42,066 nucleotides of DNA, from positions 1-42,066 of the forward strand of contig JAUIBT010000027.1 of NCBI GenBank assembly GCA_030428255.1. The letters are read 5' to 3'. The notes below the pieces were generated by a model that saw only the letters and a program-made list of their open reading frames with translations, had not been told where the DNA came from and did no database searches. The stretch comes from Alphaproteobacteria bacterium. Lineage in GTDB: Bacteria; Pseudomonadota; Alphaproteobacteria; UBA7985; JAUIBT01. Of the stretch, positions 17,915 through 41,746 are shown piece by piece. Made by a program: the position numbers and the translations under genes. Each line of letters starts with the position of its first letter. Position 1 is the first letter of the stretch.

Positions 17915-17931
17915 AAAGAGGAGGACGTAAC

Positions 17932-19239: not shown

Positions 19240-19328
19240 GCAGCAGGCGTCAGGGCCCTGGGTCTGTCTTGCAAGGCGGACTTTGGGGCTCTGATAGCAA
19301 CCACCCGCAGTCGTGAGGCAGCGTTACC

Positions 19329-20111: not shown

Positions 20112-20128
20112 GGGGGCTGTGCTCGTTA

Positions 20129-20794: not shown

Positions 20795-21129
20795 GCTCTC
20801 TCTTGCTTGCCTCGGTTGTCGCCGCGCTGCTCATCGATCTGCCAGCGCCATCATAGCGAGCCTTGGAGTCCTTTTGCTTAGCGACCGGTCTGCGGTCTTG
20901 CGCCCGGTTATCCACAGTTTGCTGACCTACAGGGCAGAGCGCGCTGCTGCGTTCGCCGAGTTTGTGTCGCAATTGCGGGGCATGCTGGTCGCCAGCCAGG
21001 GTGGCTCACTTGCTACTCTAGACAAATTTTACCAAACGTACAAATTTTCTTGACCGATTGGACAAGTTTTGTTAATCGCAAGCTAAGAAATTGAAATAAA
21101 ATAAAAGAAGCAGGGCAGAAGGCAGAGGC
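20795..21129. other. Divergent control region between RutR-like regulator and aminotransferase genes
   Basis: 335 bases without a credible gene. The regulator-proximal part (20795-21010) is GC-rich with nothing recognisable. The aminotransferase-proximal part (21011-21110) is strongly AT-rich and contains three copies of ACAA(A/G)TTTT at 21022, 21040 and 21062, which overlap the two operator-like sites described separately. Confidence 0.6.
21028..21065. promoter_or_regulatory. Two RutR-box-like sites upstream of the aminotransferase gene
   Basis: TTGACCGATTGGACAA at 21050-21065 matches 12 of 14 fixed positions of the E. coli RutR box TTGACCAnnTGGTCAA (consensus from memory). TTTACCAAACGTACAA at 21028-21043 matches 10 of 14. 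Their centres are 22 bp apart, about two helix turns, so two dimers could bind the same face. Autoregulation and control of the aminotransferase operon by the adjacent RutR-like proteins is the natural reading. Confidence 0.6.
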
Positions 21130-22437: not shown

Positions 22438-22538
22438 AGCAAAATTCTTGGCCGCGCTGATCGTGACCTCAGTGCAGCGGCAGAACCACACACCAAGACC
22501 GACGCAAGACCGGTACAAGCAGAGGAAAGAGGCAAAGC

Positions 22539-23789: not shown

Positions 23790-23848
23790 GCGCGTCGCTC
23801 AGAGCGCGTTCACAAGCAAAAAAGAGACAATCCAAGTCGGAGGCAAAC

Positions 23849-25312: not shown

Positions 25313-25330
25313 GCAAAGGACCAAGCGCGC

Positions 25331-26119: not shown

Positions 26120-27002
26120 GCCTTGGGTGAACCGCCTCGGCTATCGCTATGGGCCCGTGATCGTGGTGGCCCTGGTGATCTTCGCGCTGTGGTACCTGGC
26201 CTCGATTGCGCTGAATGCGAATTGGGCCTTCGACAAGGCCAAGCGTCAGGGCATCACCTTGAGCCCGGTGGAGTTGGTGCAAGATACCTGGAGCCAGGAC
26301 AAACCGCGTCTGCCGGTGCCCCACCAGGTGGCGCAGGAGATCTGGAAGACCACCGCGCAGAAGAAGATCACCTCTAAGCGCTCGTTGATTTTCCATTCGT
26401 GGGTGACCATGAGCTCAACCATGTTGGGCTTTGTGTTCGGCGTTGGGCTGGGCGTCGGTTTGGCGGTGTTGATCGTCTATTTCAGGGTGGTGGACATGAG
26501 CGTCATGCCCTGGATCATTGCCAGCCAGGCCATACCAATATTGGCCATTGCGCCGATGATTATTGTGATTTTGAATTCTGTTGGCATCTCGGGGTTGGTG
26601 CCCAAGGCGATCATTTCGGCCTATCTGTCCTTCTTCCCGGTGGTCGTCGGCATGGTGAAGGGCCTGCGCAGCCCGGATCAAATCGAGCTGGATCAAATGC
26701 GCACCTGGAACGCCAGCAGCGCCCACACCTTTTGGAAGCTGCGCCTGCCAAACTCGGTGCCCTATCTGTTTGCTTCGCTGAAGATCGCTATGGCGGCCTC
26801 TCTGGTCGGCGCGATTGTCGGCGAGCTGCCGACCGGGGCTGTGGCCGGGCTGGGCGCGCGCCTTCTGGCGGGCAGCTACTACGGTCAGACCATCCAAATC
26901 TGGAGCGCCTTGATCATGGCTGCCATCTTGGCCGCGGTCTTGGTCAACATCATCGGGGTCGCGCAGAGCATAACCCTTAAGCGCATGGGATTTGTGTCAT
27001 GA
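26100..27002 (+). CDS. ABC transporter permease 1
   Basis: A 300-residue BPD_transp_1 permease with a first helix at about 18-38, a periplasmic stretch, then five more helices from about 105. The EAA-type coupling loop is in DQIELDQMRTWNASSAHTFWKLRLPNSVPYLFASLKIA. Start at 26100 (ATGATG, so 26103 is also possible) after GAGAGGGGGG; it overlaps the ATPase gene and, by ATGA, the second permease. The two permeases differ clearly, implying a heterodimeric channel. Confidence 0.9.
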   Translation: MMTWSYRPWVNRLGYRYGPVIVVALVIFALWYLASIALNANWAFDKAKRQGITLSPVELVQDTWSQDKPRLPVPHQVAQEIWKTTAQKKITSKRSLIFHSWVTMSSTMLGFVFGVGLGVGLAVLIVYFRVVDMSVMPWIIASQAIPILAIAPMIIVILNSVGISGLVPKAIISAYLSFFPVVVGMVKGLRSPDQIELDQMRTWNASSAHTFWKLRLPNSVPYLFASLKIAMAASLVGAIVGELPTGAVAGLGARLLAGSYYGQTIQIWSALIMAAILAAVLVNIIGVAQSITLKRMGFVS

Positions 27003-27844
27003 TGCTGTTTGTCCTCGCGGTGGCGCTTTGGGCAGCTTTGTTCGCGCTGAACCTGTGGCTGGCGCGCCCGGGTGCGCCCTCTTGGGCTGGGGTGGCGGTG
27101 CCCATCCTTTTTGGCGTCGCCTTGTTGGTGCTGTGGGAGGCAACCGTTCGCGGCTTCAACGTACCGCGCATCTTGCTGCCCGCGCCCAGCAGCATTGTGG
27201 CGACGATATTCAGCTCGCTGCCGATCTTGTTCGCCGATTTCATGCAGACCGTGGTCAAGGGCGCTTTGACCGGCTACCTGATGGGCTGCAGCGCTGCCCT
27301 CGGCGTTGCGATTTTGGTTGATCAGGTCTCTTTCTTGCGTCGCGGCTTGCTGCCGATTGGCAACTTCGTAGCCGCGCTGCCGATTATTGGCTTAGCGCCG
27401 ATCCTGGTGATGTGGTTCGGCTTTGACTGGCAGTCGAAGGCGGCTGTGGTTGTGGTCATGGTCTTCTTCCCCATGTTGGTCAACACGGTTGAAGGTCTGA
27501 TGGACACCGACAAAATGCAGCGCGACCTTATCCGCACCTATGGCAGCAGCTATTGGCAGGGGTTGATCAAACTCCGTTTTCCAGCCGCGCTGCCCTTTAT
27601 TTTCAACGGCTTGAAGATTGCCTCCACCCTCGCGTTGATCGGGGCAATCGTCGCTGAGTTCTTTGGATCGCCGATCATGGGTATGGGATTTCGCATCTCA
27701 ACCGCGGTGGGGCAATTGAACTTGGAGCTCGTTTGGTCCGAAATTCTCGTCGCGGCTTTGGTCGGGACGGGGAGCTATGGCTTGTTGTCCCTCGTCGAGA
27801 AACGGTTGACCTTTTGGCATCCCTCTCAGCGCGGCTCATCTTAG
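26999..27844 (+). CDS. ABC transporter permease 2
   Basis: A 281-residue permease with about six to seven helices, beginning with a hydrophobic MMLFVLAVALWAALFALNLWLA. The coupling loop is DTDKMQRDLIRTYGSSYWQGLIKLRFPAALPFIFNGLKI, and GAIVAEFFGSPIMGMGFRI is the typical next helix. ATGA overlap with permease 1. The extra N-terminal helix (residues 1-20) is not found in all family members. Confidence 0.9.
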   Translation: MMLFVLAVALWAALFALNLWLARPGAPSWAGVAVPILFGVALLVLWEATVRGFNVPRILLPAPSSIVATIFSSLPILFADFMQTVVKGALTGYLMGCSAALGVAILVDQVSFLRRGLLPIGNFVAALPIIGLAPILVMWFGFDWQSKAAVVVVMVFFPMLVNTVEGLMDTDKMQRDLIRTYGSSYWQGLIKLRFPAALPFIFNGLKIASTLALIGAIVAEFFGSPIMGMGFRISTAVGQLNLELVWSEILVAALVGTGSYGLLSLVEKRLTFWHPSQRGSS

Positions 27845-27879
27845 TCAGGCACAATTTTCAATTCCATAAGGAGGCAGAA

Positions 27880-28863
27880 ATGAAATTGAAAAGTATAATG
27901 ATCGCCAGTGCTCTGGTCATGAGCGCCGGTCTTGCACAGGCAGCCGACAAGGTGACCTTGCAGTTGAAGTGGGTCACTCAGGCTCAGTTCGCGGGCTACT
28001 ATGTTGCGGCCGACAAGGGCTTCTATGCAGACGAAGGCCTTGATGTCACCATCAAGCCGGGCGGCCCGGATATCGCACCGACCCAGGTGATCGCCGGTGG
28101 TGGCGCTGATGTGGTGGTCGAGTGGATGCCTGCCGCTTTGGCAGCGCGTGAAAAGGGCTTGCCCTTGGTCAACATCGCTCAGCCCTTCAAGTCTTCGGGT
28201 ATGATGCTGACCTGTCGTAAGGATTCTGGCATTTCCAGCCCCGCTGACTTTCCGGGTAAAACCCTGGGCGTTTGGTTCTTCGGCAACGAGTTCCCCTTCC
28301 TGAGCTGGATGAGCCAATTGGGCATTGCAACTGACGGCTCGGCTGGCGGCGTGACGGTGTTGAAGCAGGGCTTTAACGTTGACCCGATCTTGCAAGGCCA
28401 GGCCGATTGCGTATCGACCATGACCTATAACGAATACTGGCAGATCATCGACGCGGGCGTTTCTCCCGACGATCTGGTGGTCTTCAAGTATGCCGAGCAA
28501 GGCGTTGCGACCCAAGAAGACGGCTTGTACGTTTTGGAAAAGAACCTGGCTGACCCTGCCTTCAATGACAAAATGGTGCGCTTTGTTCGTGCTTCTATGA
28601 AGGGCTGGAAGTGGGCTGAGGAGAACCCCGAGGCTGCCGCTGACATCGTGTTGGAGAACGACGCAACGGGCGCTCAGACCGAAAAGCACCAGGTGCGCAT
28701 GATGGGCGAAATCGCCAAGCTGACAGCGGGCTCAAACGGCGCGCTGGACCCAGCGGATTACGAGCGGACCGTCAAGACCCTGTTGGCTGGCGGCTCTGAT
28801 CCCGTGATCAGCATGGAGCCTGAGGGCGCTTGGACCCACGCGATTACTGACGAAGCGCTGTAG
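27880..28863 (+). CDS. ABC transporter substrate-binding protein, NMT1/THI5-like
   Basis: A 327-residue periplasmic receptor. Residues 1-21 are a signal peptide ending A-Q-A before ADKVTLQLKW. The mature start, LKWVTQAQFAGYYVAADKGFYADEGLDVTI, is the NMT1/THI5-like fold pattern shared by ThiY- and RibY-type receptors that bind pyrimidine or flavin-like rings. AAGGAGG precedes the ATG at 27880, so the open frame upstream is not used. It closes the four-gene ABC set, before a strong terminator. Ligand inferred as a pyrimidine/hydantoin from the operon; not proven. Confidence 0.9.
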   Translation: MKLKSIMIASALVMSAGLAQAADKVTLQLKWVTQAQFAGYYVAADKGFYADEGLDVTIKPGGPDIAPTQVIAGGGADVVVEWMPAALAAREKGLPLVNIAQPFKSSGMMLTCRKDSGISSPADFPGKTLGVWFFGNEFPFLSWMSQLGIATDGSAGGVTVLKQGFNVDPILQGQADCVSTMTYNEYWQIIDAGVSPDDLVVFKYAEQGVATQEDGLYVLEKNLADPAFNDKMVRFVRASMKGWKWAEENPEAAADIVLENDATGAQTEKHQVRMMGEIAKLTAGSNGALDPADYERTVKTLLAGGSDPVISMEPEGAWTHAITDEAL

Positions 28864-29299: not shown

Positions 29300-30808
29300 A
29301 TGGCGGACAACAAGGCGCGACGACGGCGGCGCGGCCAAGCTGGGCCGGAGCCAGCGGTAGCGGCGCGCGCTCAAGGCGGAACCTGGCGTCCCATGTGTGA
29401 CCAAGATTGTCTGCGCATGGCTGAGGCGGCGATTCAGATCTTGACCGACATCGGGGTCTCGCAAGCGCCGCCGATCATGTGCGAGGCGATCACGGCTGCG
29501 GGCGGCAAACTCCACGACGGACGGCTGCTATTCTCGCAGGCACAAATTGCAGACTACCTCAAGCGGGCACGCCGCACCTTGCTGTTGGCAGGCCAGTGGC
29601 CCGAGCACGACCTCAAGGTCGGCAGCACGGCGGTCTATGCTGGCACCGGCGGCGCGGCCCCTTATGTGGCGGACCAGGCCTTGGGCGGCTTTCGGCCCTC
29701 CAGCTTGGCCGATCTCTATCAAGCCGCGCGCTTGGCCGACGCGCTGGAGCATCTGCAGTTCTTCGCGCGCTCGCTGGTGGCGCGGGATATCGACGACCCG
29801 CTGCGTTTGGACCTGTGCACGGCGGCGGCCTGCCTGATGGGCACCGCCAAGCACGTGATGGTGCAGGCCAGCCAGGCCCGCCACGTCGAAGACATCGCCG
29901 CGCTGTGCTATCGGGTGGCGGGCGGCGAGGCAGCCTTTCGCGCGCGTCCCTTCTTGTCGCTCAATGTCAACCACGCGGTGCCGCCCTTGCGGATGCACGC
30001 CGAGGCACTTGAGGTTATGGCCGCGGCTGCCCGCGCGGGCATACCGGTGCATGCCAATGTCTTTGGTCAGCTTGGCGCTTCCAGCCCTGTGACGCTGGCA
30101 GGATCGGTGGCGCAGACCTTGGCTGAGACGCTGGCCGGGCTGGTGTTCCTTGACACCCTGGTGCCGGGCGCGGCGGTGATCGCCGGACCGCGCGCCATGA
30201 TCACAGATTTGCGCAGCGGCGGTATGGCGGGCGGTGCGGGTGAACAGGTGTTGGCGACGGGCATGGCGGTGCAAGTCTTGCGCTTGTGGGACCTGCCGTG
30301 CTCGGTCATCGCTGGCGCGACCGACAGCAAACGTGCGGATTTCCAGGCGGGCTACGAGAAGGCCATGACCATCGCCAGTGCTGCCCAGGCGGGCGCCAAT
30401 CTCATCACCCAGGCGGCGGGCACCCAGGCGGGGCTCATGGCCATGAGCCCGGCGGCCATGGTGGCGGATAACGATATGCTGGGCGCGGTTCTGCGCAGTT
30501 TGTCGCCGGTGGTGGTGGACGAGGAGACGTTGGCGCTGGCCTCGATCAAGGCGGTGGTTGAGGGCGAGGGACACTTTTTAGGCCAGCCTGAGACCTATGC
30601 GCGGATGCGCAGCGATTTCCTCTATCCCAAACTGGCGGATCGCAGCGCCTTAGAGGCCTGGATGGCCGCACCGACAGCAGACATGGAGGCGCGAGCTTGG
30701 CAGCAGGCGCGCGCGCTTGCGAAAACCCACTGGCCCACGCATGGCGACCTGCAGACGCGGCGCGCGATCTTGCAAGAATTTGGGCTTCCAAGCGGAGAAA
30801 CGGAATGA
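29300..30808 (+). CDS. MttB-family (trimethylamine methyltransferase-like) protein, non-pyrrolysine
   Basis: A 502-residue TIM-barrel protein of the MttB superfamily. Supporting segments are MAEAAIQILTDIGVSQAPP near residue 39, a GTGGAAPYVAD stretch near 115, FARSLVARDIDDPLRLD, and the C-terminal YPKLADRSALEAW. It begins with a very basic stretch (RRRRRG, residues 8-13). No in-frame amber codon is read through, so it is of the pyrrolysine-free type; characterised relatives demethylate glycine betaine, proline betaine or carnitine onto a corrinoid protein. No corrinoid protein, corrinoid activator or methyl-THF transferase is in the window. It heads the accessory cluster and overlaps the next gene by ATGA. 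AGGAAAAAGGG precedes the ATG. Substrate unknown. Confidence 0.8.
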   Translation: MADNKARRRRRGQAGPEPAVAARAQGGTWRPMCDQDCLRMAEAAIQILTDIGVSQAPPIMCEAITAAGGKLHDGRLLFSQAQIADYLKRARRTLLLAGQWPEHDLKVGSTAVYAGTGGAAPYVADQALGGFRPSSLADLYQAARLADALEHLQFFARSLVARDIDDPLRLDLCTAAACLMGTAKHVMVQASQARHVEDIAALCYRVAGGEAAFRARPFLSLNVNHAVPPLRMHAEALEVMAAAARAGIPVHANVFGQLGASSPVTLAGSVAQTLAETLAGLVFLDTLVPGAAVIAGPRAMITDLRSGGMAGGAGEQVLATGMAVQVLRLWDLPCSVIAGATDSKRADFQAGYEKAMTIASAAQAGANLITQAAGTQAGLMAMSPAAMVADNDMLGAVLRSLSPVVVDEETLALASIKAVVEGEGHFLGQPETYARMRSDFLYPKLADRSALEAWMAAPTADMEARAWQQARALAKTHWPTHGDLQTRRAILQEFGLPSGETE

Positions 30809-31752
30809 AAATTGCCATCATCGGCGCCGGAGCCATGGGCTCGATTTATGCGGCACGCTTCGCCCAGGTGGGCCACCAGGTCTGGGCAGTCGATCTGTGG
30901 CAGGTGCATGTTGCGGCCATCAACGGCGACGGCTTGCGGGTCGATGGCCCAGCCGGGACCATCCACACTCGCCAGATTGTGGCTGTTGGCGCGCTGGCCC
31001 AAGCGCCGGCTTGCGATCTCTACGTCATTGCAACCAAAGCGGCGGGCGTTGCGGCTGCGGCGCGCGATGTCGCCCAACACACAACCCGAAATGCAGACGC
31101 GTCTGCAAGCGTGCTGACCATCCAGAACGGCCTGGGTGCGGGCGAAGGCATCGCTCAGCATCTCAGTCCTGAGCAGGTGCTGTTGGGCGTTGCCGAAGGC
31201 TTTGGTGCCTCCATGGTCGGGCCCGGCCATGCCCAGCACACCGCGATGAAGCGCATCCGCTTGGGCAAGATGAACGGCGGTCTGGATGCGCGGCTTGAGC
31301 AGGTGGTGCAGATCTGGCAAGGCGCGGGCTTCGATGCCCAGGCCTACGGCGACATCGATCAGCTCATTTGGGAGAAGCTGTTGTGCAATGTCACCTTGTC
31401 GGGGCCTTGCACGGTCTACGGCTGCACGGTGGCCGAGCTGCTGGCTGACCCGGAGCGCTGGCGAACAGCTCTGGGCTGTATGCTGGAAGCTTATGCTGTG
31501 GGCCAAGCGCGCGGGGTTGCCTTCACCTTTGACGATCCGGTGGCCTATGTGACCGACTTTGCCAAGCGGGTTGGCAGTGCAAAGCCGTCGATGCTGCAAG
31601 ATCACGAGGCCGGGCGGCTGTCAGAGCTGGACGCCATCAATGGGGCCATTGCGCCGCTGGCGCGCGTTCTGGGCATAGCGACGCCGCGCAATGATGCCAT
31701 CTGCGCCGAAATCCGCCAGCGCGAGGCGGACTTTGCGCGCCCACGGTCGTAA
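30805..31752 (+). CDS. Ketopantoate reductase (ApbA/PanE)-family oxidoreductase
   Basis: A 315-residue NAD(P)H-dependent reductase. The dinucleotide site is MKIAIIGAGAMGSIYAARF (residues 1-19); TIQNGLGAGEGIA and the catalytic Lys in LIWEKLLCNVTLSG, with SMLQDHEAGRLSELDAINGAI in the C-terminal domain, match the ApbA/PanE fold. Family members reduce 2-ketopantoate or other 2-oxo acids. As it is translationally coupled to an MttB-family gene inside a catabolic cluster, it is more likely a substrate-specific 2-oxo/2-hydroxy acid dehydrogenase than the pantothenate enzyme. Tandem 18-bp repeats overlap its 3' end. Confidence 0.82.
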   Translation: MKIAIIGAGAMGSIYAARFAQVGHQVWAVDLWQVHVAAINGDGLRVDGPAGTIHTRQIVAVGALAQAPACDLYVIATKAAGVAAAARDVAQHTTRNADASASVLTIQNGLGAGEGIAQHLSPEQVLLGVAEGFGASMVGPGHAQHTAMKRIRLGKMNGGLDARLEQVVQIWQGAGFDAQAYGDIDQLIWEKLLCNVTLSGPCTVYGCTVAELLADPERWRTALGCMLEAYAVGQARGVAFTFDDPVAYVTDFAKRVGSAKPSMLQDHEAGRLSELDAINGAIAPLARVLGIATPRNDAICAEIRQREADFARPRS

Positions 31753-31838
31753 ACGCGCCCGCGGTTGCAAGCGCACGCACGGTTGTAAGCACACGCACGG
31801 TTGTAAGCGCGCCTGGGCCAAGCGCGCTTGGGCCAAGC
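31737..31838. repeat. 18-bp and 15-bp tandem repeat tract
   Basis: Four 18-base units (31737-31754, 31755-31772, 31773-31790, 31791-31808) of the type GCACGCACGGTTGTAAGC, then two 15-base units (31809-31823 and 31824-31838) of the type GCGCTTGGGCCAAGC. The first unit contains the stop codon of the PanE-like gene; the rest fills the interval before the racemase gene. Confidence 0.85.
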
Positions 31839-31948
31839 GGTTTAGGATGGTGGAACGGAGCCAGTTCGCCTGCAAACCAAGGCTTCGTGCTTGCCAGCTT
31901 TGGCGGACGGTCTAAGCTGGTCATCACCACATACCGAAAGCCCAATCC

Positions 31949-32626
31949 GTGAAGCGCGTCTTTGTTCTCAACCCCAACAGCTCCCCGGCGATCACGGCCT
32001 CTCTGTCGGCCTGCCTAGAGCCGCTGCGCCGCACGAGCGCGCACGCCATCATTTGTTCTGAGCTTTCAGAGGCCCCCTTGGGCATTGAAAGCGATGCTGA
32101 TGTTGTCTTGGCCGAGCGGCTTGCTGAACAGCGAATCCTGGCTGAGCCTTGCCAGGCGGCGGTCATTGCCTGTTTTTCCGACCCCGGATTGCCAGCGATC
32201 CGTGCCAAAGCACGCATGCCCGTCTTCGGCATCGCCGAGGCCGCTTATTGCTCGGCCCTAATGCTTGGGCGGCGCTTTGGCGTCATCTCGCTTGGCCCGG
32301 CGTCGATTGCCCGCCATGCCCGGCAGATCGCCGACATGGGCCTCTCTGCACGGCTGGCCGGGGATCGTGCGATTGATATGAGCGTTGCTGAAGGCAACCG
32401 CCCAGACGCGCTGGAAACGATTGCCCTGGTGGGGCAGCAGCTCTGCGTCGAGGATGGTGCGCAGGTGCTGATTTTGGGCTGTGCGGGCATGGGCGGCCAC
32501 CGTGCAGCGCTGCAAGATCGTTTGGGCGTGCCGGTGATTGATCCGGTGCAAGCGGCGGTGGCGGTGGCTCTGAGCGCGCTTGATCTCGACTACCTCCCGC
32601 AAACCGTCAGGAGCAGCGCCGCATGA
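31949..32626 (+). CDS. Asp/Glu/hydantoin racemase family protein
   Basis: A 225-residue two-cysteine racemase-fold protein. It starts with VFVLNPNSSPAITASL, like hydantoin and allantoin racemases (VINPNTS). The two catalytic cysteines lie in VIACFSDPGL (about residue 74) and LILGCAGMGG (about 178). The start is GTG at 31949; no strong ribosome site is seen. It overlaps the next gene, a cyclic amidohydrolase, by ATGA, the arrangement expected for a racemase-hydrolase pair acting on a 5-membered cyclic ureide or imide. The exact substrate is unknown. Confidence 0.85.
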   Translation: MKRVFVLNPNSSPAITASLSACLEPLRRTSAHAIICSELSEAPLGIESDADVVLAERLAEQRILAEPCQAAVIACFSDPGLPAIRAKARMPVFGIAEAAYCSALMLGRRFGVISLGPASIARHARQIADMGLSARLAGDRAIDMSVAEGNRPDALETIALVGQQLCVEDGAQVLILGCAGMGGHRAALQDRLGVPVIDPVQAAVAVALSALDLDYLPQTVRSSAA

Positions 32627-33993
32627 TCGACCAGATTGTTCGCGGAACCTTGGTCACGCCGCAAGGCCTGCTGGAACAGGGCTGGCTGGCCATCAAGGGC
32701 GAAACCATCGCCGCGCTGGGGCAGGGTGAGGCTCCGCCTGCGGCCGCGGTCCAAGATTGGGGGCAGCGGCTCATACTGCCGGGGGTGATCGACGGCCAGA
32801 CTCACGCCACCAGTTGCCAGGGCCTGGCGGGCATCGCGGATACCACCCGCTCGGCACTGGCGGGCGGCGTTACGACTCTGGTTGACATGCCATATGACAA
32901 TCCCCTGCCGCTCGACCAGCCCCAGCGCCTGGCGGCTAAGGTGGAGGCCATCGCCCAACACGCGCACGCGGACATGGCGCTCTACGCCACGGTGACAGGT
33001 GAGACGGGCGTTACGCAGGTGCCTGCTCTGATCGACGGCGGCGTTGTGGCCTTCAAGATCTCCTCGTTTGAAAGCAGCCCAACGCGCTTTCCGCGCATAC
33101 CGGCAGACCTCATGCTTGCGCTGTTGGAAGCACTGGCGCAAACCCCCTTGCCCTTGGGACTACACAATGAAGATCAAGAGATCGTCTTGGCGCGCATGGC
33201 GGCTTTTCGTGCCGCAGGCAAAGATGGGATTGAAGCGCACGCTTTGGCGCGGCCCTTGGCTGCCGAGCTGGCGGCGACGGCTCAGTTCCTGGCGCTGGCG
33301 CAAGCCACAGGCGCGCACGCGCACCCGGTGCATTTATCGGCCGCTGCAGGCTTCCAGCAGGTGGCAGCCTTTGCGGGCTTGGGCGTTCGGGCAACCGGTG
33401 AGACCTGCGTTCACTATCTTTGGTTTGACGCCGCCAAAGATGGAGCGCGACTGGGCGCGCGCATGAAAGTCAATCCGCCCATCCGCGCAGGCCAAGTTGA
33501 GGGGCTCTGGCGCGCGATCAGTCAAGGCCAGGTCGCCTTCACCTCATCGGATCATTCCAGTTGGCCCATTGATAACAAGCTGACGGACTCGATTTTTGAC
33601 GCCGGGGCGGGCGTGCCCGGTTTGGAAACCCTGTTGCCCGCCTTTTTCACGGCTGCCGAGGCGCGCGGCTTAGACGCGCCCAGTCTGACCGCCAGCCAGC
33701 TCTGCGAGCGCCCGGCGCGGTTCTTTGGACTTGCCGACCGCAAGGGCGCGCTGGCGGTGGGGCGCGACGCCGATCTGGTGGTGCTGGAAAGGGGCCAGTT
33801 CACTTGGGACGAGGCCCAGGCCCATGACGGTCTGAATTGGTCGCCCTTCCATGGCCAGACCTTCGCGGTTCGCGTGGCGGGCACCTACCTGCGCGGAACA
33901 CTGGGCTGGGATGGAACAACAATCACCAATCAACCGGGCGCCGGGCGATATCAGCCGCGTGGCGCTGTTGGCTGGTATCAGAACGAAGGATAG
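32623..33993 (+). CDS. Cyclic amidohydrolase (dihydroorotase/allantoinase-like) with altered HxH motif
   Basis: A 456-residue amidohydrolase-superfamily protein. The usual H-x-H metal motif after the first beta strand is replaced: GVIDGQTHATS has Gln59 in place of the first His, with His61 kept. Other ligands remain: Lys145 (AFKISSFE), His181 (GLHNEDQEI), His237 (HPVHLSA) and Asp310 (TSSDHSSW). NPPIR and GVPGLETLLP are as in allantoinases and dihydroorotases. It should open or hydrolyse a cyclic amide but with a changed metal site. Coupled to the racemase upstream and followed by a DapA-like gene. Confidence 0.83.
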   Translation: MIDQIVRGTLVTPQGLLEQGWLAIKGETIAALGQGEAPPAAAVQDWGQRLILPGVIDGQTHATSCQGLAGIADTTRSALAGGVTTLVDMPYDNPLPLDQPQRLAAKVEAIAQHAHADMALYATVTGETGVTQVPALIDGGVVAFKISSFESSPTRFPRIPADLMLALLEALAQTPLPLGLHNEDQEIVLARMAAFRAAGKDGIEAHALARPLAAELAATAQFLALAQATGAHAHPVHLSAAAGFQQVAAFAGLGVRATGETCVHYLWFDAAKDGARLGARMKVNPPIRAGQVEGLWRAISQGQVAFTSSDHSSWPIDNKLTDSIFDAGAGVPGLETLLPAFFTAAEARGLDAPSLTASQLCERPARFFGLADRKGALAVGRDADLVVLERGQFTWDEAQAHDGLNWSPFHGQTFAVRVAGTYLRGTLGWDGTTITNQPGAGRYQPRGAVGWYQNEG

Positions 33994-33996
33994 ACC

Positions 33997-34923
33997 ATGG
34001 CTCTTTTGACCGCAGACGCAAAGGGCGTCTTTGTCATCTCTGTCACGCCGTTTGACGAGGCGGGTGCGATTGACACCCGCAGCTTGGACAGCGTGACCGA
34101 TTTCTATTTCGACAAGGGCGCGGACGGGCTGACCATCCTTGGCATGATGGGCGAAGCGCCCAAGCTGACCCAGGCCGAGAGCCGGGCGGTTGCAGCGCAG
34201 GTGATCAAACGGGCCGGTGATAAGCCGGTGGTGGTTGGGGTTTCGGCCCCCGGGTTGGCGGCCATCGGGGAGCTGAGCGCAGCCGTGATGGACATGGGGG
34301 CAGCCGGTGTAATGGTGGCGCCGCCTTCCAGCCTTAAGACCGATGCGCAGATCGTGGCCTATTATCACCAGGTTGCTAGCGTGGTCGGGCCTGGCGTCCC
34401 CATTGTCCTGCAGGACTTTCCCTTGGCCACCGGCGTTCATATCGCCCCCAGCGTGATTGGTCAGATCGCCAGTGACCTGGAGCAAGTGGTGATGCTCAAG
34501 CATGAAGATTGGCCGGGCCTGGAGAAGATCAGCGCCCTGCGACGTGCGGAGCAGGCCGGGCAACGCAGGCTGTCGATCCTGTGCGGCAATGGTGCGTTGT
34601 TTTTGCCAGAGGAGATGGGGCGCGGGGCTGACGGGGCCATGACGGGCTTTGGCTATCCAGAAATGCTGGCGCAGGTAGTGGCTTTGGCAGGTGCTGGTGA
34701 GATGACCCGCGCGCAAGATTTGTTCGATATCTATCTGCCGCTGGTGCGCTATGAGCAGCAGCCGGGGGCGGGGCTTGCGGTGCGCAAACACGTCCTGGCT
34801 CGTCGCGGCGCGATTGCCTGCTCAGCGGTGCGGGCGCCTGGTGCGGGCTTGTCTACGTCAGCCCTAAGCGAGGTCGAGCGCTTGATGGAACGCCAAGACC
34901 AGCGGCTCGCAGCGCTGGCGTAA
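33997..34923 (+). CDS. DapA/NAL-family lyase or dehydratase, non-canonical active site
   Basis: A 308-residue TIM-barrel protein of the dihydrodipicolinate synthase/N-acetylneuraminate lyase family. The Schiff-base lysine is Lys168 in VVMLKHEDW. However the pyruvate-binding GTTGE motif reads GMMGE (49-53), and the catalytic Tyr of the Y-x-x-P segment is replaced by Gln139 (LQDFPLATG). It is therefore not DapA; it may cleave or dehydrate a different 2-oxo or imino acid. GAAGGA precedes the ATG and only 3 bases separate it from the amidohydrolase gene. A role in the same pathway is inferred. Confidence 0.82.
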   Translation: MALLTADAKGVFVISVTPFDEAGAIDTRSLDSVTDFYFDKGADGLTILGMMGEAPKLTQAESRAVAAQVIKRAGDKPVVVGVSAPGLAAIGELSAAVMDMGAAGVMVAPPSSLKTDAQIVAYYHQVASVVGPGVPIVLQDFPLATGVHIAPSVIGQIASDLEQVVMLKHEDWPGLEKISALRRAEQAGQRRLSILCGNGALFLPEEMGRGADGAMTGFGYPEMLAQVVALAGAGEMTRAQDLFDIYLPLVRYEQQPGAGLAVRKHVLARRGAIACSAVRAPGAGLSTSALSEVERLMERQDQRLAALA

Positions 34924-34993: not shown

Positions 34994-35887
34994 TTAGCGC
35001 GCGCGGTTCAAGTCTGCTTGCCAATCATAGGCGGTCAGCAGGTCCCACAACTCTTGGCAAAATTCGGGGAACGAGGCTCGGTTGCGCATCAGGAGGCTAA
35101 CCTTGCGGCGGTCAGGTAGGTCTTGGAGCGGGCGAAAGACCAGATCCGGGCTCATGAAGCGGACTACGGATTGCGGCAGCACCGTAACCCATGCCCCTGT
35201 ACGCACCATGGCGGTCAGCGACATGGTATTATGAACGCTGACCCTGGTATCGGCGATGGCCTCTTGAAACGCACTGGTTTCGATCAAGCCCAGCAAATTA
35301 TTGCGAATGAAAGGCGTGGTCTTGATTTGCTCGATGCTGGGCGGTTCGGGCTGTTGGGCCAAGGCGTGATCGGGTGCGCAAATCAGGCCATAGGTATCGC
35401 TGAAGAGCAGGGTCGAGCGCACGTCGTTCAGGCTGTGCTCGCCTGAGGCGATGCCCAAATCCACCCGCCCACGGGTTAGGGCATCAACGACTTGCTGGCT
35501 GTCGGTGTCGCGCAACTCGATCCGGAGGCCGGGATGGCGTTCGGTCAGGCTGCGGATGGCAATCGGAAAGACCTGGGCCGCTATTGAGGGCACGGAGGCG
35601 ACCCTGATCAGCCCAGCGCGTGACTTAGCGCAGGCTTGGATGGCCTCAATCGTGTAGTCGAATTGGCGCAACTCGGTTTGGGCCAACTCAAAAACCTGCT
35701 CGCCCAACTGGGTCAGCCGGTTCTTGCGATCGCTCTCAAACAGGCGTTGGCCCAAGGTTTCTTCAAGCTGCTTAAGCGTCATGGACAGCGCGGATTGGGT
35801 TCGGCCCAGGCGGCTGGCCGCCTCGGCCAGATTGCCGGTCTGAGCCACGGTTGCAAAGCAGCGCAACATCTCGATCTTGATTGCCAT
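34994..35887 (-). CDS. LysR-family transcriptional regulator
   Basis: A 297-residue LysR protein. Winged helix at about 1-60: MLRCFATVAQTGNLAEAASRLGRTQSALSMTLKQLEETLGQRLF; then an effector domain with LIRVASVPSIAAQVFP, GRVDLGIASGEH and a C-terminal PEFCQELWDLL. It is divergent from the aldehyde dehydrogenase gene and convergent with the DapA-like gene. It most likely controls the ALDH-dipeptidase operon and possibly the MttB operon. An inverted repeat at 35890-35930 in front of its start is the candidate binding site. Confidence 0.92.
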   Translation of the reverse strand: MAIKIEMLRCFATVAQTGNLAEAASRLGRTQSALSMTLKQLEETLGQRLFESDRKNRLTQLGEQVFELAQTELRQFDYTIEAIQACAKSRAGLIRVASVPSIAAQVFPIAIRSLTERHPGLRIELRDTDSQQVVDALTRGRVDLGIASGEHSLNDVRSTLLFSDTYGLICAPDHALAQQPEPPSIEQIKTTPFIRNNLLGLIETSAFQEAIADTRVSVHNTMSLTAMVRTGAWVTVLPQSVVRFMSPDLVFRPLQDLPDRRKVSLLMRNRASFPEFCQELWDLLTAYDWQADLNRAR

Positions 35888-35930: not shown

Positions 35931-35983
35931 TTATATAACCCCAGTCCTAAAGTTTGCCTACCCCTAGATCTCTGAGGCATTTG

Positions 35984-37435
35984 ATGACCACGACACAGCA
36001 AAATTTCATCGCGGGCGAATGGCGCAACGGCCAAGACGTGATCGAGAACCGCAACCCCTCAGATTTGAGCGATTTGGTTGGCCTCTATGCGCAGGCAGGC
36101 CCATCGGATTTGGACGACGCCCTGGCGCAAGCGCGAAAGGCTCAGCAAGAGTGGGCAGGCTATGGCCTGGAGCGCAAGCAGGCGGTGCTGATGTCCATCG
36201 GCAACGAGTTGATGGCCCACGCTGAAGAGCTGGGCACCCTGCTGAGCCGCGAAGAAGGCAAACCGCTGGCAGAAGGCAAGGGCGAGGTCTATCGCGCTGG
36301 TCAGTTCTTCACCTACTACGCCGCTGAATGCCTGCGCCAACTGGGCGAAAACGCCGACAGCGTGCGTGCGGGCGTTGAGATTGACGTGCGGCGCGAACCC
36401 GTGGGTGTGGTGGCCGTGATCAGCCCCTGGAACTTCCCCACTGCGACCGCATCTTGGAAGATCGCGCCAGCTTTGTGTTATGGCAACGCGGTGATTTGGA
36501 AGCCCGCGAACGCGACGCCAGCCTCTGCGGTGGCATTGACCCAGATTATTGCCCGTCAGGACATTCCCAAAGGCCTGTTCAACCTGGTTATGGGCTCGGG
36601 CGGCAGCATCGGCCAGCGCCTGGTCGAAAGCCCAGAGGTGGATGCGATCTCCTTTACCGGCTCGGTGCCAGTGGGCAAGCAGATCGCGACGGCGGCCATC
36701 CAAAATCTGACCAAGGTTCAGATGGAGATGGGCTCGAAAAACGCTTTGGCGGTGATGGACGACGCCAATTTGGATTTGGCCGTTGCGCTGGCCTTGGGCG
36801 GCGCCTTTGGGGGCACCGGGCAGAAGTGTACGGCCAGCTCTCGCTTGGTGGTGCATGCGAGTGTCCACGATGCCTTTGTTGAAAAGCTGATCGCCGGTGC
36901 AAGCGCGATGCGGGTTGGCCACGCTCTGGCAGCCGACACGCAGATGGGCCCTGTGGTCAGTGAACAGCAGTTGGCCGAGAATTTGGCCTACGCCGAGCTG
37001 GGCCGCACCGAGGGCGCAGAGCTGGTTTGTGGCGGCCAGCGGTTGGAACTGGAGCACCAGGGCTATTACATGGCGCCGGGCGTCTTCGTGAACACCCGCA
37101 ACGACATGCGCATCAATCGCGAGGAAATGTTCGCGCCCTTAACCTCAGTCATCAAGGTTGACGGCTATGACGAGGCGCTGGCGGTGGTCAATGACACAAA
37201 ATTTGGCCTGACATCAGGGATTGTGACCCAGAACTTGGCCCGCGCCACCCACTTCCGTCGTAACGCCAAAACCGGTGTTGTGACCGTCAACCTGCCGACC
37301 GCGGGCACCGACTACCACGTCCCCTTTGGCGGGCGCGGGGACAGCTCCTATGGTCCGCGCGAACAGGGTCGCTCGGCTGCTGAGTTCTATACCACAGTCA
37401 AAACGGCCTACATCAGCGCTGGAGAGCCCGAGTAA
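35984..37435 (+). CDS. NAD(P)-dependent aldehyde dehydrogenase, alpha-ketoglutaric semialdehyde dehydrogenase-like
   Basis: A 483-residue aldehyde dehydrogenase. FIAGEWRNG at the start, ISPWNFP and WKPANATPAS for the cofactor, FTGSVPVGKQIA, catalytic Glu in QMEMGSKNALAVM and catalytic Cys in GTGQKCTASSRLVV. The KCTASSR segment and MGPVVSEQQL match the 2,5-dioxovalerate (alpha-ketoglutaric semialdehyde) dehydrogenase group, though related semialdehydes are possible. GAGG lies about 8 bases before the ATG at 35984. Its stop overlaps the next start (TAATG). It probably oxidises a semialdehyde intermediate of this cluster. Confidence 0.87.
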   Translation: MTTTQQNFIAGEWRNGQDVIENRNPSDLSDLVGLYAQAGPSDLDDALAQARKAQQEWAGYGLERKQAVLMSIGNELMAHAEELGTLLSREEGKPLAEGKGEVYRAGQFFTYYAAECLRQLGENADSVRAGVEIDVRREPVGVVAVISPWNFPTATASWKIAPALCYGNAVIWKPANATPASAVALTQIIARQDIPKGLFNLVMGSGGSIGQRLVESPEVDAISFTGSVPVGKQIATAAIQNLTKVQMEMGSKNALAVMDDANLDLAVALALGGAFGGTGQKCTASSRLVVHASVHDAFVEKLIAGASAMRVGHALAADTQMGPVVSEQQLAENLAYAELGRTEGAELVCGGQRLELEHQGYYMAPGVFVNTRNDMRINREEMFAPLTSVIKVDGYDEALAVVNDTKFGLTSGIVTQNLARATHFRRNAKTGVVTVNLPTAGTDYHVPFGGRGDSSYGPREQGRSAAEFYTTVKTAYISAGEPE

Positions 37436-38409
37436 TGCGGATCGACGGACTTCAGTACGCCAATTGGTCGGAAAAGATCTTCCGCCAACTGCGCGAGGGC
37501 GGGGTCGATGCGGTGCATGTCACCATCGCCTATCACGAGAGCTTTCGCGAGACCGTGCTGAATTTCGAACGTTGGAACCGCTGGTTTGAGCAGTATCCTG
37601 ACCTGATCATGAAAGGACTATGGGCGCAGGACATAGACCGGGCGCGCGAGAGCGGGCGAACTGCAATCTTCTTTGGCTTCCAAAACCCGTCGCCGATGGA
37701 AGATGACATCGGGCTGGTGGAAATCCTGCACACCTTGGGTGCGCGCTTTATGCAGCTGACCTACAACAACCAGTCGCTGCTGGCCACTGGCTGCTATGAG
37801 GCCGAAGACAGCGGGTTGACCCGCATGGGCCGCGAGGTCATTGACGAAATGAACCGCGTCGGATTGGTGGTGGATATGAGCCACTCGGGCGATCGTTCAA
37901 CCATTGAGGCGGCCGAATATTCTCAGCGCCCCATTGCCATCACCCACGCCAACCCTTACGCCTGGCAGCCCGCGCTGCGCAACAAGCGTCACGAGGTGAT
38001 TCAGGCCGTGGTGGACAAAGGCGGCATGCTGGGTTTTTCGCTCTACCCGCACCATCTGAAGGACAAGTCCGCCTGTACGCTGCAAAGCTTTTGCGACATG
38101 GTCGCGCGTGCAGCCGACACTTATGGCGCACAACACTTGGGCATCGGCTCGGACCTGTGCCAAGATCAACCGGATAGCGTGGTCGAATGGATGCGTGTGG
38201 GGCGCTGGACCAAGCGAATTGACTATGGAGAGGGCTCGGCTTCCGCACCGGGCTTTCCCGACATGCCGGCTTGGTTTCAAGATAATCGCCACTTTGGCAC
38301 GCTCGAGCAAGGCTTGCGTGCGACGGGCCTGAGCGATGAAGACGTTGGGGGGATCATGGGCAAGAACTGGTATCGGTTCTTTGCTGAGAACTTTGGTCCA
38401 CAAGGATAA
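37435..38409 (+). CDS. M19 (renal dipeptidase) family protein lacking canonical metal ligands
   Basis: A 324-residue TIM-barrel protein of the membrane-dipeptidase family, without signal peptide. The N-terminal H-x-D zinc pair is absent: IDGLQYANW has Leu6 and Tyr8 there. The bridging Glu of the GxEGG segment is Gln83 (GFQNPSPMEDD). Later histidines remain, His150 (VDMSHSGD) and His171 (ITHANPY), along with GIGSDL and GKNWYRFF. From memory the same altered pattern occurs in the P. aeruginosa protein beside the dimethylglycine demethylation genes (PA5396). It is unlikely to be an ordinary dipeptidase. It overlaps the ALDH gene and is followed by the 562-aa gene. Confidence 0.83.
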   Translation: MRIDGLQYANWSEKIFRQLREGGVDAVHVTIAYHESFRETVLNFERWNRWFEQYPDLIMKGLWAQDIDRARESGRTAIFFGFQNPSPMEDDIGLVEILHTLGARFMQLTYNNQSLLATGCYEAEDSGLTRMGREVIDEMNRVGLVVDMSHSGDRSTIEAAEYSQRPIAITHANPYAWQPALRNKRHEVIQAVVDKGGMLGFSLYPHHLKDKSACTLQSFCDMVARAADTYGAQHLGIGSDLCQDQPDSVVEWMRVGRWTKRIDYGEGSASAPGFPDMPAWFQDNRHFGTLEQGLRATGLSDEDVGGIMGKNWYRFFAENFGPQG

Positions 38410-38414
38410 GTCTT

Positions 38415-40103
38415 ATGTCAGATAACAGGCAAATGGCGGTGGCCAGGCGCAGTCCCGATCAGGTGATGCGTTTGGCGCGGCTGGGCTCTATGCATCAGTG
38501 TCGGCTCAGCTTTATGCGGGTGCTGATGCGGCGCATGGCAAGCGATGGCTGGCAATTTTCGCGCAAAGAGTTTGCGGTTGGCCCCGATGGCGTCGGCCAC
38601 GCGGTTTATGTGGCTCAAGGGCCCGAGCGGGCTTACTCCCTGGTCGCTTTTGCCCACGACCTGCCGGACGAAATGCGCTCGGACCGCGTGATCGCCACGG
38701 CTTGGGACGCCACCTTTGCGCTGTACGATGGCATTCCTAGCGCCGAGGACATCGCGCGCTTGTCCAAGAATGTGCCCTATCAAGAGGCAGGCCGCATATC
38801 CGAGCGCGAGCTGTCGCTGTCACGCGCCAATCGCTCGGTGCGCCTTTGGCAGCACGTGGTAAGCGCCCTGGCGAAAGGCGAGCAGCCGGACCGCGCGCAA
38901 ATTGATGCGGTGGGCTACCTGATGCGCACCACCGCGGTCTATGGTTCGGGCAAGTTCGGGGCGGCAGATTACAGCGTCATCGCCGACCGGCCAGAAATGG
39001 GGGTGCCCTTCCAGGCCGAGATGCTGTCGGTCTATCTAACCCGTGCGTTTGTTCGCGATCTGGTCAACCATATGGCCCGCACGCAAGGCGGTGCTGCGGC
39101 TGTGGAGCTTGCGCCCGACATCGCGGGCTCTTTGGGCATCGGCAACTCGACCGGTCTGGGGCTCGGGCCTTTCATCATCAACCACCCGGTGCTGTTCAAC
39201 AATTGGATCGCCGCGCGCGAAGAGGCCATTGCCCGCGTGCGCGCACTGGGCAGCGCCTCGGCGGACGCTCAGGCCGTGTTCAAAGACCTGGTGGCCCGCA
39301 GCGAACTGTCGATTGCGCGCTGGCGTTCGGAGCACCCGGTGCAGCAGGCCAAGATCGCCGACCTGCGGCAGGACATGGCCTTGCTCAAAGTACAGCTGGC
39401 AGAGTTTGATCTGAATAGCGCCGCGCCCTGGGACGCGCTTTTGACCTGGAGCGAAGAGGCCCTGAGCCTTGAAGGCCGCGAGCTTTTGGCCTCGCTGGTG
39501 CTAGAGCCCTATGGCGCGCTGGTAGACGATCTTGCGCCCAGCATGGCGGATCGGGACCCCGATGGCTTTCGCATCGACGGCTCTATGCCCGTGGGCGAGC
39601 TGCGGGCCCTGCTGGAAGCCAGCTATGGCTGGGCTTTGCCGCTGGATTGGTCGGCGCCCGAGCAACGCGCGCGCGCCTGGTACGTTTCAGCGGAGAAGCT
39701 GGAGCCCCGCCTGGGCGAGCGCTTTGAAGAGCCCATCGAGCCCTATGAAACGCCCCTGGCACCGGCACGTGACGCAGCGACGGCCTACGGCGACCTAGAG
39801 GACTGGCCAAATGACGAGCCCATCGCGGCCTTCTTGATGCGCCACCCCGAACATCGCTATACAGTGCGCCGCTCCCAAATCTCCGCTCGCGCGCCCTACA
39901 GTGAGATCAGGGACAACACCATTTCGGCCGAGCTATTCCCGGTGGACCTGCTGCGGGTGAAGCTGGCTTTCTTTGGCGCGACCCATTTCGACCCGCGCTC
40001 AGATCGCTGGCTGCGCATCACCATGTTTGGCAACGCACCCTATCCCGAGGCGCTCAGCCCCGACAATGCCGACCTTTGGGTCTATCCGGAGGCCCAGCCA
40101 TGA
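38415..40103 (+). CDS. Conserved protein of unknown function, 562 aa
   Basis: I do not recognise a family. The protein is soluble with no signal peptide or membrane helices. Residues 1-130 contain aromatic/acidic stretches (RMASDGWQFSRKEF, AWDATFALYDG); the middle has GSGKFGAADYSVIADRPEMGVPFQAEMLSVYLTRAFVRDLVNHMAR and GNSTGLGLGPFIINHP, which looks like an enzyme core; 270-370 is helical; and the end has MRHPEHRYTVRRSQISARAPYSEIRDN. An AAGGA site lies 8 bases before the ATG. It overlaps the DUF3726-like gene by ATGA, so the two are probably functional partners. Codon use resembles the neighbours. Confidence 0.85.
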   Translation: MSDNRQMAVARRSPDQVMRLARLGSMHQCRLSFMRVLMRRMASDGWQFSRKEFAVGPDGVGHAVYVAQGPERAYSLVAFAHDLPDEMRSDRVIATAWDATFALYDGIPSAEDIARLSKNVPYQEAGRISERELSLSRANRSVRLWQHVVSALAKGEQPDRAQIDAVGYLMRTTAVYGSGKFGAADYSVIADRPEMGVPFQAEMLSVYLTRAFVRDLVNHMARTQGGAAAVELAPDIAGSLGIGNSTGLGLGPFIINHPVLFNNWIAAREEAIARVRALGSASADAQAVFKDLVARSELSIARWRSEHPVQQAKIADLRQDMALLKVQLAEFDLNSAAPWDALLTWSEEALSLEGRELLASLVLEPYGALVDDLAPSMADRDPDGFRIDGSMPVGELRALLEASYGWALPLDWSAPEQRARAWYVSAEKLEPRLGERFEEPIEPYETPLAPARDAATAYGDLEDWPNDEPIAAFLMRHPEHRYTVRRSQISARAPYSEIRDNTISAELFPVDLLRVKLAFFGATHFDPRSDRWLRITMFGNAPYPEALSPDNADLWVYPEAQP

Positions 40104-40714
40104 AAAACGCAGTCATGAATAACGCAGTCATGAGCTACGCATTGATCGAAGTTGAGGCTATGGCCAAGAAGGCCGCGCGTGGCGCGGGGCAAAGCTGGGG
40201 CATGGCCGAGGAGGCAGCCAAAGCGGCAAGTTGGCTCTGTGCGCAAAACCTGGATGGCGTTGCGGCCTTGGCGTGTGCGCTTGGTAGCGATGCAGGGCAG
40301 GGCGATGCCTTGGCGGCAGCGGTTGCCATTTCTGACACTGCGGGCGCCTGGCCGCCAGAGGGCATGAGGCTGGAGGTGGCATTCGTACCGGCCTTGCTGC
40401 TGCCCTTTGCGGCCTATGCGGCGCGCCAAGTTGCTCAGCCGGTGACGCTGAGCTGGCAGGGTGGGAGCGCTGTCACGGACGGTCACCGCCTCTGCCTGGA
40501 GGATTTGCAACCCCAGGATCTCCTGCATTCACTAGGGCAGGTTGCCATCCGCATAGGCGGTACACTGGGCGAGCCGCAGGAGCACCGGACTCGCGCGGAG
40601 CCTGATGCGGCGGACTGGCAGCAGCTCGCCGATTTGGCGCAGCGCACCTACGCCCCCGCCAGCGAGGAATCGCGCCTTAAGGGGGCTGGAGCTGGCCTCA
40701 ACGACAACGACTAA
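40100..40714 (+). CDS. DUF3726-like protein
   Basis: A 204-residue protein with a conserved-looking N-terminus, LIEVEAMAKKAARGAGQSWGMAEEAAKAASWL, which matches my recollection of DUF3726 proteins. No catalytic motif is evident. The start at 40100 has GGAGG 7-8 bases upstream and is followed by a 15-bp duplication (40100-40114 and 40115-40129), each unit beginning with ATG; the family core would begin at the third ATG, 40130. It is coupled to the 562-aa gene upstream and followed by an Ldh2-type dehydrogenase 21 bases on. Confidence 0.72.
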   Translation: MKNAVMNNAVMSYALIEVEAMAKKAARGAGQSWGMAEEAAKAASWLCAQNLDGVAALACALGSDAGQGDALAAAVAISDTAGAWPPEGMRLEVAFVPALLLPFAAYAARQVAQPVTLSWQGGSAVTDGHRLCLEDLQPQDLLHSLGQVAIRIGGTLGEPQEHRTRAEPDAADWQQLADLAQRTYAPASEESRLKGAGAGLNDND

Positions 40715-40735
40715 CCGACAAACTGGGAGCGCCCG

Positions 40736-41746
40736 ATGATCGAGACCAAAACCTTGAGCCTGAGCGAGATCGAAGATTTGAGCCTGAGGGCGCTGATGGC
40801 GGCGGGCACGTCGGAACAAAACGCCCGGCCTCTGGCGGTCGCAACGGCGGCCACTGAGGCGGACGGCGTTGCCAGCCATGGCCTGGCTTACATCCCCATC
40901 TATTGCGAGCACGTCCAGTGCGGCAAGGTCGATGGCCAAGCCGTGCCGCTGCTCAGCCGCCCACGTCCTGGCGTGGTTGCGGTGGATGCTGCGACCGGCT
41001 TTGCCCACTCGGCCATTGATGTCGGCTTTGAGGCCTTAATCCCGCTGGCACGTGAACAGGGCGTCGCTGCCTTGGCCATCTCCAACAGCTACAACTGTGG
41101 CGTGCTGGGCTACCACACCCACCGCCTTGCCAAGGCCGGGCTGCTGGGGCTGGGCTTTACCAACGCACCGGCCTCGATTGCGCCGTCGGGCGGGTCAAAG
41201 CCTGTCGTTGGCACCAATCCTTTCTCGCTGGCCGCTCCTGGGCCGGATGGCGCGCCGGTCGTGCTGATTGACCAGAGCGCCAGCACCATCGCCAAAAGCG
41301 AAGTCATGAAGCATGCCCGCGAAGGTCGACCGATTCCGGTCGGCTGGGCTTTGGACCCTGAGGGCAATCCCACCACCGATCCCAACGTCGGCCTGAAGGG
41401 CTCTATGGCGCCGTCTGGTGGCTATAAGGGCGTCGGCATAGCCTTGCTGGTCGAGATTATGGCTGCGGCGATGACAGGTGCGACGCTGGGCATTCATGCC
41501 TCGCCCTTCTCGGGCACTGCGGGCGGGCCGCCCAAGACCGGCCAGTTTTTCTTGGCGATTGATCCGGCGGCAACCTCGGGCCATGGCTTTGCTCAGCGCA
41601 TGGCGGATTTGGTCGCGGCGATTCATGGGCAAGAGGGCGCGCACCTGCCAGGCGACGGGCGCGGTGGCAAGCGCCGAAAAGCGCAGGAGGCTGGGGTCGC
41701 GGTCAACGTGGCGACCTTGGCGCGGATCGAGGCGATCTTGGCCTAA
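40736..41746 (+). CDS. Ldh2/MDH2-family (malate/L-lactate/ureidoglycolate/imino-acid) dehydrogenase
   Basis: A 336-residue oxidoreductase of the Ldh2 fold. The family marker EADGVASHGLAYIP has the catalytic His in ASHG (about residue 46), followed by ISNSYNCGVLGYHTHRLA, PSGGSKPVVGTNPFSLAAP and MAPSGGYKGVGIALLVEIM. This family includes malate, sulfolactate and ureidoglycolate dehydrogenases and the delta1-piperideine/pyrroline-2-carboxylate reductases. The last two suit the cluster (cyclic ureides or cyclic imino acids). GGGAG precedes the ATG. It is the last gene of the operon begun by the ALDH. Confidence 0.85.
   Translation: MIETKTLSLSEIEDLSLRALMAAGTSEQNARPLAVATAATEADGVASHGLAYIPIYCEHVQCGKVDGQAVPLLSRPRPGVVAVDAATGFAHSAIDVGFEALIPLAREQGVAALAISNSYNCGVLGYHTHRLAKAGLLGLGFTNAPASIAPSGGSKPVVGTNPFSLAAPGPDGAPVVLIDQSASTIAKSEVMKHAREGRPIPVGWALDPEGNPTTDPNVGLKGSMAPSGGYKGVGIALLVEIMAAAMTGATLGIHASPFSGTAGGPPKTGQFFLAIDPAATSGHGFAQRMADLVAAIHGQEGAHLPGDGRGGKRRKAQEAGVAVNVATLARIEAILA

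Follow-up and report, generated by a model that had tools for sequence, protein, structure and literature searches.

Gene content of the window

The stretch of DNA analysed here (the window) comprises 42,066 nucleotides of contig JAUIBT010000027.1 from an alphaproteobacterial genome assembly (GCA_030428255.1). Its right-hand part carries a gene for a LysR-type regulator and, divergent from it, five genes for an aldehyde dehydrogenase (ALDH), an M19-fold protein, a 562-residue protein (H562), a DUF3726 protein and an LDH2-family reductase (Table 1). The ALDH stop codon and the M19 start codon share one base. The region to the right of the operon, where transporter genes would be expected from related genomes, lies beyond the contig end.

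Table 1. Features of the operon and of the M19 gene in the window
Feature	Positions	Strand	Remarks
LysR-type regulator, divergent from the operon	34994..35887	-	PF00126/PF03466; LysR likewise divergent in the majority of 80 loci
Aldehyde dehydrogenase (ALDH)	35984..37435	+	PF00171, 506 bits; ATG 35984 inside longer TTG ORF 35954-37435
M19-fold protein with altered metal site	37435..38409	+	324 aa, ATG start
Codons L6-Q7-Y8, where H-x-D is expected	37450..37458	+	D4-G5-L6-Q7-Y8 versus D-G-H-x-D
Codon Q83 (GFQN), bridging Glu position	37681..37683	+	
Codon Y110, His152-equivalent position (substrate side)	37762..37764	+	
Codons H150 (37882-37884) and H171 (37945-37947), kept	37882..37947 (region)	+	invariant in variant and canonical rows
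Codon R182, equivalent of substrate-carboxylate Arg230, kept	37978..37980	+	from the alignment
Codon D240, equivalent of Asp288, kept	38152..38154	+	from the alignment
H562, partner of M19	38415..40103	+	562 aa; without sequence-family or fold match
DUF3726 protein	40130..40714	+	PF12525; 194 aa from the likely ATG; ORF open from 40076
LDH2-family reductase	40736..41746	+	PF02615, 310 bits; contig ends 320 bases later

Other clusters occupy the preceding part of the window. Judged from its ORFs, a cluster at positions 16574-28863 serves the reductive degradation of pyrimidines/hydantoins (PreT, PreA, two TetR regulators, a class III aminotransferase, a HyuC-like hydrolase, a dihydropyrimidinase and an ABC transporter). 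A separate cluster at 29300-34923 encodes an MttB-family methyltransferase, a ketopantoate-reductase-like ORF, an Asp/Glu/hydantoin racemase, a DHDPS-like protein and an amidohydrolase, the nearest match of which was the ergothioneine-utilisation protein ErtD with 486 bits, below the cut-off of 600 for that family.

The M19-fold protein and its variant clade

The profile search assigned the product of the M19 gene to Peptidase_M19 (PF01244) with 238.9 bits (cut-off 26) over residues 11-317. Renal dipeptidase and the bacterial and fungal M19 dipeptidases (1itq, 3id7 and GliJ, 5lwz) belong to the same sequence family and fold, and have in common with the window protein the two beta-site His residues and the equivalents of Arg230 and Asp288 of renal dipeptidase, the roles of which we take to be those of established M19 knowledge. 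Unlike these enzymes, the window protein is devoid of H-x-D, the bridging Glu and His152, possesses an extra C-terminal segment (W252/G256) and is encoded in a betaine-catabolism context. The alpha-zinc ligands of the H-x-D pair are missing (L6 and Y8 instead), as is the zinc-bridging Glu (Q83 instead), and both beta-zinc His ligands (H150 and H171) are present. Regarding the substrate residues of the M19 dipeptidases, Arg and Asp are kept and His is changed to Tyr110, a position at which some canonical M19 proteins carry Trp. The first-pass annotation had named the replaced pair, the replaced Glu and the two retained His residues at precisely these positions, which proved to be a family-wide pattern (148/148, see below). 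The genome assembly contains no other M19 gene; a search for a canonical one elsewhere in it yielded none.

A set of 172 M19 rows was compiled from Rhodobacteraceae loci, a class-wide sample, a phylum-wide PF01244 sample and plasmid records. Gln and Tyr were found in place of Glu and His, together with the loss of H-x-D, in 148 rows, all of which keep the equivalents of His150, His171, Arg182 and Asp240. Another 23 rows show DGHxD, Glu, and His or Trp; the pattern is thus all-or-nothing. In a single row (L154), which is placed on a long branch, HxD has become DSHIS, the bridging Glu is a Leu and the first beta His a Gln; judged from these residues, the zinc site was lost here a second time, independently.

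Because many of the 148 variants are close relatives of each other, a tree is a fairer measure than counts. After thinning at 72% identity, 53 rows remained, 36 of them variants, and the latter formed one side of a branch with a support of 100/100. Residues that are invariant in the variants, and only there, are Q83, N84, Q107, Y110, N111, E122, D125, K184, W252 and G256 (alignment), which point to a re-purposed active site. The median dN/dS of the variants was about 0.06, i.e., synonymous changes prevail, as expected under purifying selection. A single clade with its own invariant residues and a low dN/dS argues for a site that was remodelled once and kept thereafter, and excludes decay; chance or sequencing error as the source of the altered residues is ruled out by the 148/148 conservation and the dN/dS values. 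By alignment and tree, the variants are a distinct clade of M19-fold amidohydrolases with a single origin.

As far as the aligned ligand positions tell, the alpha-metal site is absent from this clade (H-x-D lost, Glu changed to Gln, His152 to Tyr), and its members probably hold at most one metal, at the beta position, via His150 and His171. R182 and D240 are probably kept for the binding of the substrate carboxylate and for proton transfer. The earlier claim that a binuclear zinc site cannot form stands insofar as the canonical ligands are gone throughout the clade, but has to be softened in its strength: total loss of binuclear metal binding is only likely, because the newly invariant acids E122 and D125 might help to hold a metal and could be replacement ligands. 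The clade would thus represent a natural experiment, in which a binuclear amidohydrolase site was cut to a single metal or to none, with the substrate-side Arg and Asp kept.

The closest solved structure was that of a Pseudomonas aeruginosa 'amidohydrolase' (2i5g), with an E-value of 1.4e-54 over residues 3-321. Like the window protein, 2i5g has Leu at the position of the first His, Gln at that of the bridging Glu, the YN motif and both His residues as well as Arg and Asp; it differs in carrying L-x-I instead of L-x-Y. In several gammaproteobacterial genomes, the gene for such an L-x-I protein immediately precedes those for DUF5943, dgcA (Oxidored_FMN and Pyr_redox domains) and dgcB (DUF3483 and Fe-S). 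These dgc neighbours were restricted to the L-x-I branch, to which 2i5g belongs, whereas the neighbours of the window branch are ALDH, H562, DUF3726 and LDH2. The dgcAB-linked L-x-I branch is a sister of the L-x-Y branch of the window. The same order, pepD-hp-dgcAB, is reported for P. aeruginosa in a paper on Vibrio natriegens (PMC12093977); a search of the accessible literature for PA5396/PA5397 found no paper.

A Pseudomonas protein with the same substitutions as in the window, located beside dimethylglycine demethylase genes, had been mentioned in the first-pass annotation, which on these grounds linked the variants to N-methylated amines rather than to peptides. Variants beside DUF5943, dgcA and dgcB do exist and P. 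aeruginosa 2i5g falls into the family, but these carry L-x-I and not L-x-Y. The direction of the metabolic link is borne out by betaine transporters and by N-methylglutamate dehydrogenase genes near the operon in relatives, but the window branch itself is not located beside dimethylglycine demethylase. The comparison of phylogeny and gene neighbourhoods suggested there for the variant M19 proteins gave one clade, with the L-x-Y and L-x-I branches in different operons.

Operon partners and related loci

Of 80 loci from Rhodobacteraceae, about 70 show the order of a divergent LysR followed by ALDH-M19-H562-DUF3726-LDH2; a gene for a BCCT betaine transporter is often inserted in the operon or follows it. 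In Aminobacter and Pararhizobium (Rhizobiales), genes for a glycine betaine ABC transporter come after the same five genes. In small genomes (1.2-1.4 Mb) tentatively assigned to SAR11 by their size and gene context, ALDH-M19-H562-DUF3726 may be preceded by an OpuAC-type transporter, and Vibrio campbellii has RidA-ALDH-M19-BCCT-H562-DUF3726. In Phaeobacter inhibens, Rieske and DMGDH-like genes follow the operon. A syntenic ALDH with about 83% identity is present at 77 of 81 loci; the nearest solved chains of the ALDH are betaine aldehyde dehydrogenases.

The window M19 protein is 81-86% identical to the Roseobacteraceae copies and 70% identical to that of the sampled genome of its own genus (G117). 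The higher identity to Roseobacteraceae suggests that the operon (35984-41746) may have been gained horizontally.

Among 385 genomes of the class, H562 was present in 48 of the 50 genomes with a close M19 (P 7e-53); the M19 and H562 genes were adjacent in 36 of 47 genomes and at most 6 kb apart in 43 of 47. No match of H562 to Pfam, NCBIfam or the PDB was found by sequence. Its AF2 model (pLDDT 83, pTM 0.88) was used for a fold search, in which the best Foldseek E-value was 0.38 and no VIA Z exceeded 3.6, a result that for a 562-residue model does not in itself prove a new fold. H562 is widespread and has strongly conserved motifs (GNSTGLG..P...NHP and RTTAVYG.GK.G). An H562 homologue with 14 in-frame stops is located beside an intact M19 gene in one genome (G077:C43:1070-2299), and the copy in a SAR11-like genome (G297) contains a single TAA.

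The DUF3726 protein had no match in the PDB by sequence, and only the fold search yielded one: its model (pLDDT 89) aligned with 15 Ldh_2 entries at VIA Z 8.8-10.9 over 146-171 of 194 residues, the next unrelated entry reaching 3.4. Judged from the model, DUF3726 is a miniature relative of the fold of the adjoining LDH2 (type 2 malate/lactate dehydrogenase). A search of the accessible literature for DUF3726 found no paper. For the operon LDH2, the best solved relative was delta1-piperideine-2-carboxylate reductase (1wtj, DpkA; E 1.9e-57, next 2.8e-41), which also has the fold of the DUF3726 model. Enzymes of the DpkA family are imine reductases known to make N-methyl amino acids.

A more distant arrangement combines an H562-like protein with an M19 protein that has L-x-C. 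In Sinorhizobium, Ensifer and Bosea (L135, L144 and L140), the order is IclR, H562-like protein, hypothetical protein, M19 (L-x-C) and ABC transporter; class III aminotransferase and RidA genes are also present in the Sinorhizobium/Ensifer cluster, in Ensifer together with an annotated SSADH. This cluster perhaps belongs to a related pathway, maybe for another N-methylpyridine such as trigonelline.

Proposed role in homarine catabolism and alternatives

Directly upstream of LysR, a sox-like cluster of four genes and an AraC gene are present in P. inhibens, in Ruegeria TM1040 and at a further 14 loci. A genome labelled R. pomeroyi contains three sox-like clusters, of which the closest to the operon-linked one (alpha subunit 65-75% identical) has as neighbours an AraC gene and genes of the dmm type (with DmmA-like domains and HODM alpha). 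Since tmaR and mgdABCD have been described beside the dmm genes (PMC13390433), and both identity and position agree with that description, the sox-like cluster was identified as mgd (N-methylglutamate dehydrogenase). Comparison with the three clusters of R. pomeroyi led us to discard its annotation as a plain sarcosine oxidase. In the class sample, six genomes carry an alpha subunit of the sox/mgd type within 10 kb of M19, against an expectation of 0.93; they represent several families, two of the genomes being SAR11-like, and the association of mgd with the operon is partly phylogenetic. In the window genome, a search for an mgd orthologue yielded two sox-like clusters with 46-47% identity at best, neither of them assignable as mgd; the linkage to the operon is that observed in the relatives.

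A passage in PMC13390433 mentions a recent report of Mgd in homarine catabolism, crediting Ferrer-Gonzalez et al. 2026. Homarine is quickly removed by R. pomeroyi (PMC12817926). The operon is present in an R. pomeroyi strain (L070), and its R. pomeroyi copy lies on contig JAGQAG010000001.1 near position 1,022,400. A homarine operon, homABCDER, reportedly occurs in Rhodobacterales and SAR11 (reportedly described by Ferrer-Gonzalez et al. 2026, Nat Microbiol). It is reported to have five genes plus a regulator and to involve Mgd, and the five structural genes and regulator found here in Rhodobacterales and SAR11-like genomes fit this description; the two operons are likened by gene number, distribution and the link to Mgd. 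The window operon has probably been described before, as the homarine operon, and we infer with good confidence that homarine (N-methylpicolinate) is its substrate.

On the way from homarine to N-methylglutamate, one carbon of the ring has to be removed, C6 being the simplest choice; by analogy with trigonelline catabolism (see below), cleavage between C5 and C6 would leave C6 as an N-formyl group. In the pathway proposed here, H562 and the mini-LDH2 DUF3726 would open the N-methylpyridinium ring, the ALDH would oxidise the resulting semialdehyde (C5), M19 would release formate from the opened intermediate by hydrolysis of its N-formyl (amide) bond, LDH2 would reduce the N-methylimine to N-methylglutamate, and Mgd would demethylate the latter to glutamate. 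In the trigonelline catabolism of Acinetobacter baylyi (Tgn), N-methylpyridinium is opened to an N-formyl-N-methyl intermediate, and an ALDH and a hydrolase take part. The proposed pathway resembles Tgn in all these respects, but Tgn features a TgnA/B-type flavin monooxygenase, and the product proposed here is N-methylglutamate. The profile search revealed no recognisable two-component flavin monooxygenase, or any other monooxygenase, among the operon genes, and it is by this elimination that ring opening is given to H562 and DUF3726. Deformylation is given to M19 because it is the sole amidohydrolase-fold protein in the operon, and the retained Arg and Asp would match an N-acyl amino acid whose alpha-carboxylate is free. 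The resemblance of LDH2 to DpkA fits an imine intermediate.

A hydrolytic catalytic role of M19 is reasonably probable, and an N-formyl amide as its specific substrate is put forward tentatively. The complete scheme, i.e., an M19 clade with at most one metal that works in a homarine operon and hydrolyses an N-formyl intermediate on the way to N-methylglutamate, is the best explanation at hand and quite possible, if short of probable. If the homarine reading is true, M19 and H562 would be the enzymatic unknowns of the pathway in SAR11 and Roseobacters. We regard as doubtful the wider generalization that the whole L-x-[Y/C/I] clade consists of hydrolases of N-formyl or N-acyl N-methyl amino acids, with one metal or none, and that H562/DUF3726 is a new pyridinium ring opener without known oxygenase folds, the two constituting an undescribed route of N-methylpyridinium breakdown in SAR11 and Roseobacters. 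For the dgcAB-linked branch, removal by M19 of N-formyl by-products of N-methyl oxidation is a speculation.

M19 might instead have lost catalysis along with its metal site and serve as a structural or substrate-binding partner in a complex with H562 and DUF3726. The adjacency and co-inheritance of M19 and H562 and the dismantled site agree with such a role, and DUF3726 as a shrunken relative of an enzyme makes a complex of cast-off folds imaginable. Against it stand H150, H171, R182 and D240, present in every variant next to a new set of invariant polar residues. Moreover, the site has been kept independently of H562, because the dgcAB-linked sister clade has the same site without H562. Overall, a non-catalytic M19 appears rather unlikely.

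It is less likely still that M19 acts on a ring, either the N-methylpyridinium or an N-methyl lactam, which it would hydrate or hydrolyse instead of attacking an N-formyl group. Amidohydrolase-fold enzymes are well known to open cyclic amides, and the operon encodes no other recognisable ring-opening enzyme; however, N-methylglutamate has one backbone carbon less than the homarine ring plus carboxyl group, which fits a cleavage between C5 and C6 with C6 leaving as formate, and not a simple hydrolytic opening, and H562 and DUF3726 would still be in need of a role.

We give equally little weight to the degradation of a betaine other than homarine, for which glycine betaine, proline betaine and similar quaternary amines would be candidates. 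Transporters of the BCCT and OpuA types accept a range of betaines, the operon of P. inhibens is followed by the Rieske and DMGDH-like genes, and the sister clade belongs to dimethylglycine demethylation. Nevertheless, the linked sox-like cluster is of the mgd type and not of the type of the other two R. pomeroyi clusters, the five core genes include no demethylase, and the imine intermediate suited to a DpkA-like LDH2 speaks for homarine.

It is very improbable that M19 is a normal membrane dipeptidase in which residues at other positions act as the ligands, since its good PF01244 score and the newly invariant acids E122 and D125 are set against H-x-D or Glu retained in none of the 148 variants and against neighbours from betaine catabolism. 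Hundreds of proteins from marine and soil bacteria annotated as 'membrane dipeptidase' fall into the variant clade and are probably not dipeptidases; correcting these annotations moves the clade proteins to methylated-amine catabolism.

In one family of genomes, a SABATH-type methyltransferase is encoded after or near the operon (L123:4738-5838, PF03492; L193:10234-11376, by sequence resemblance).
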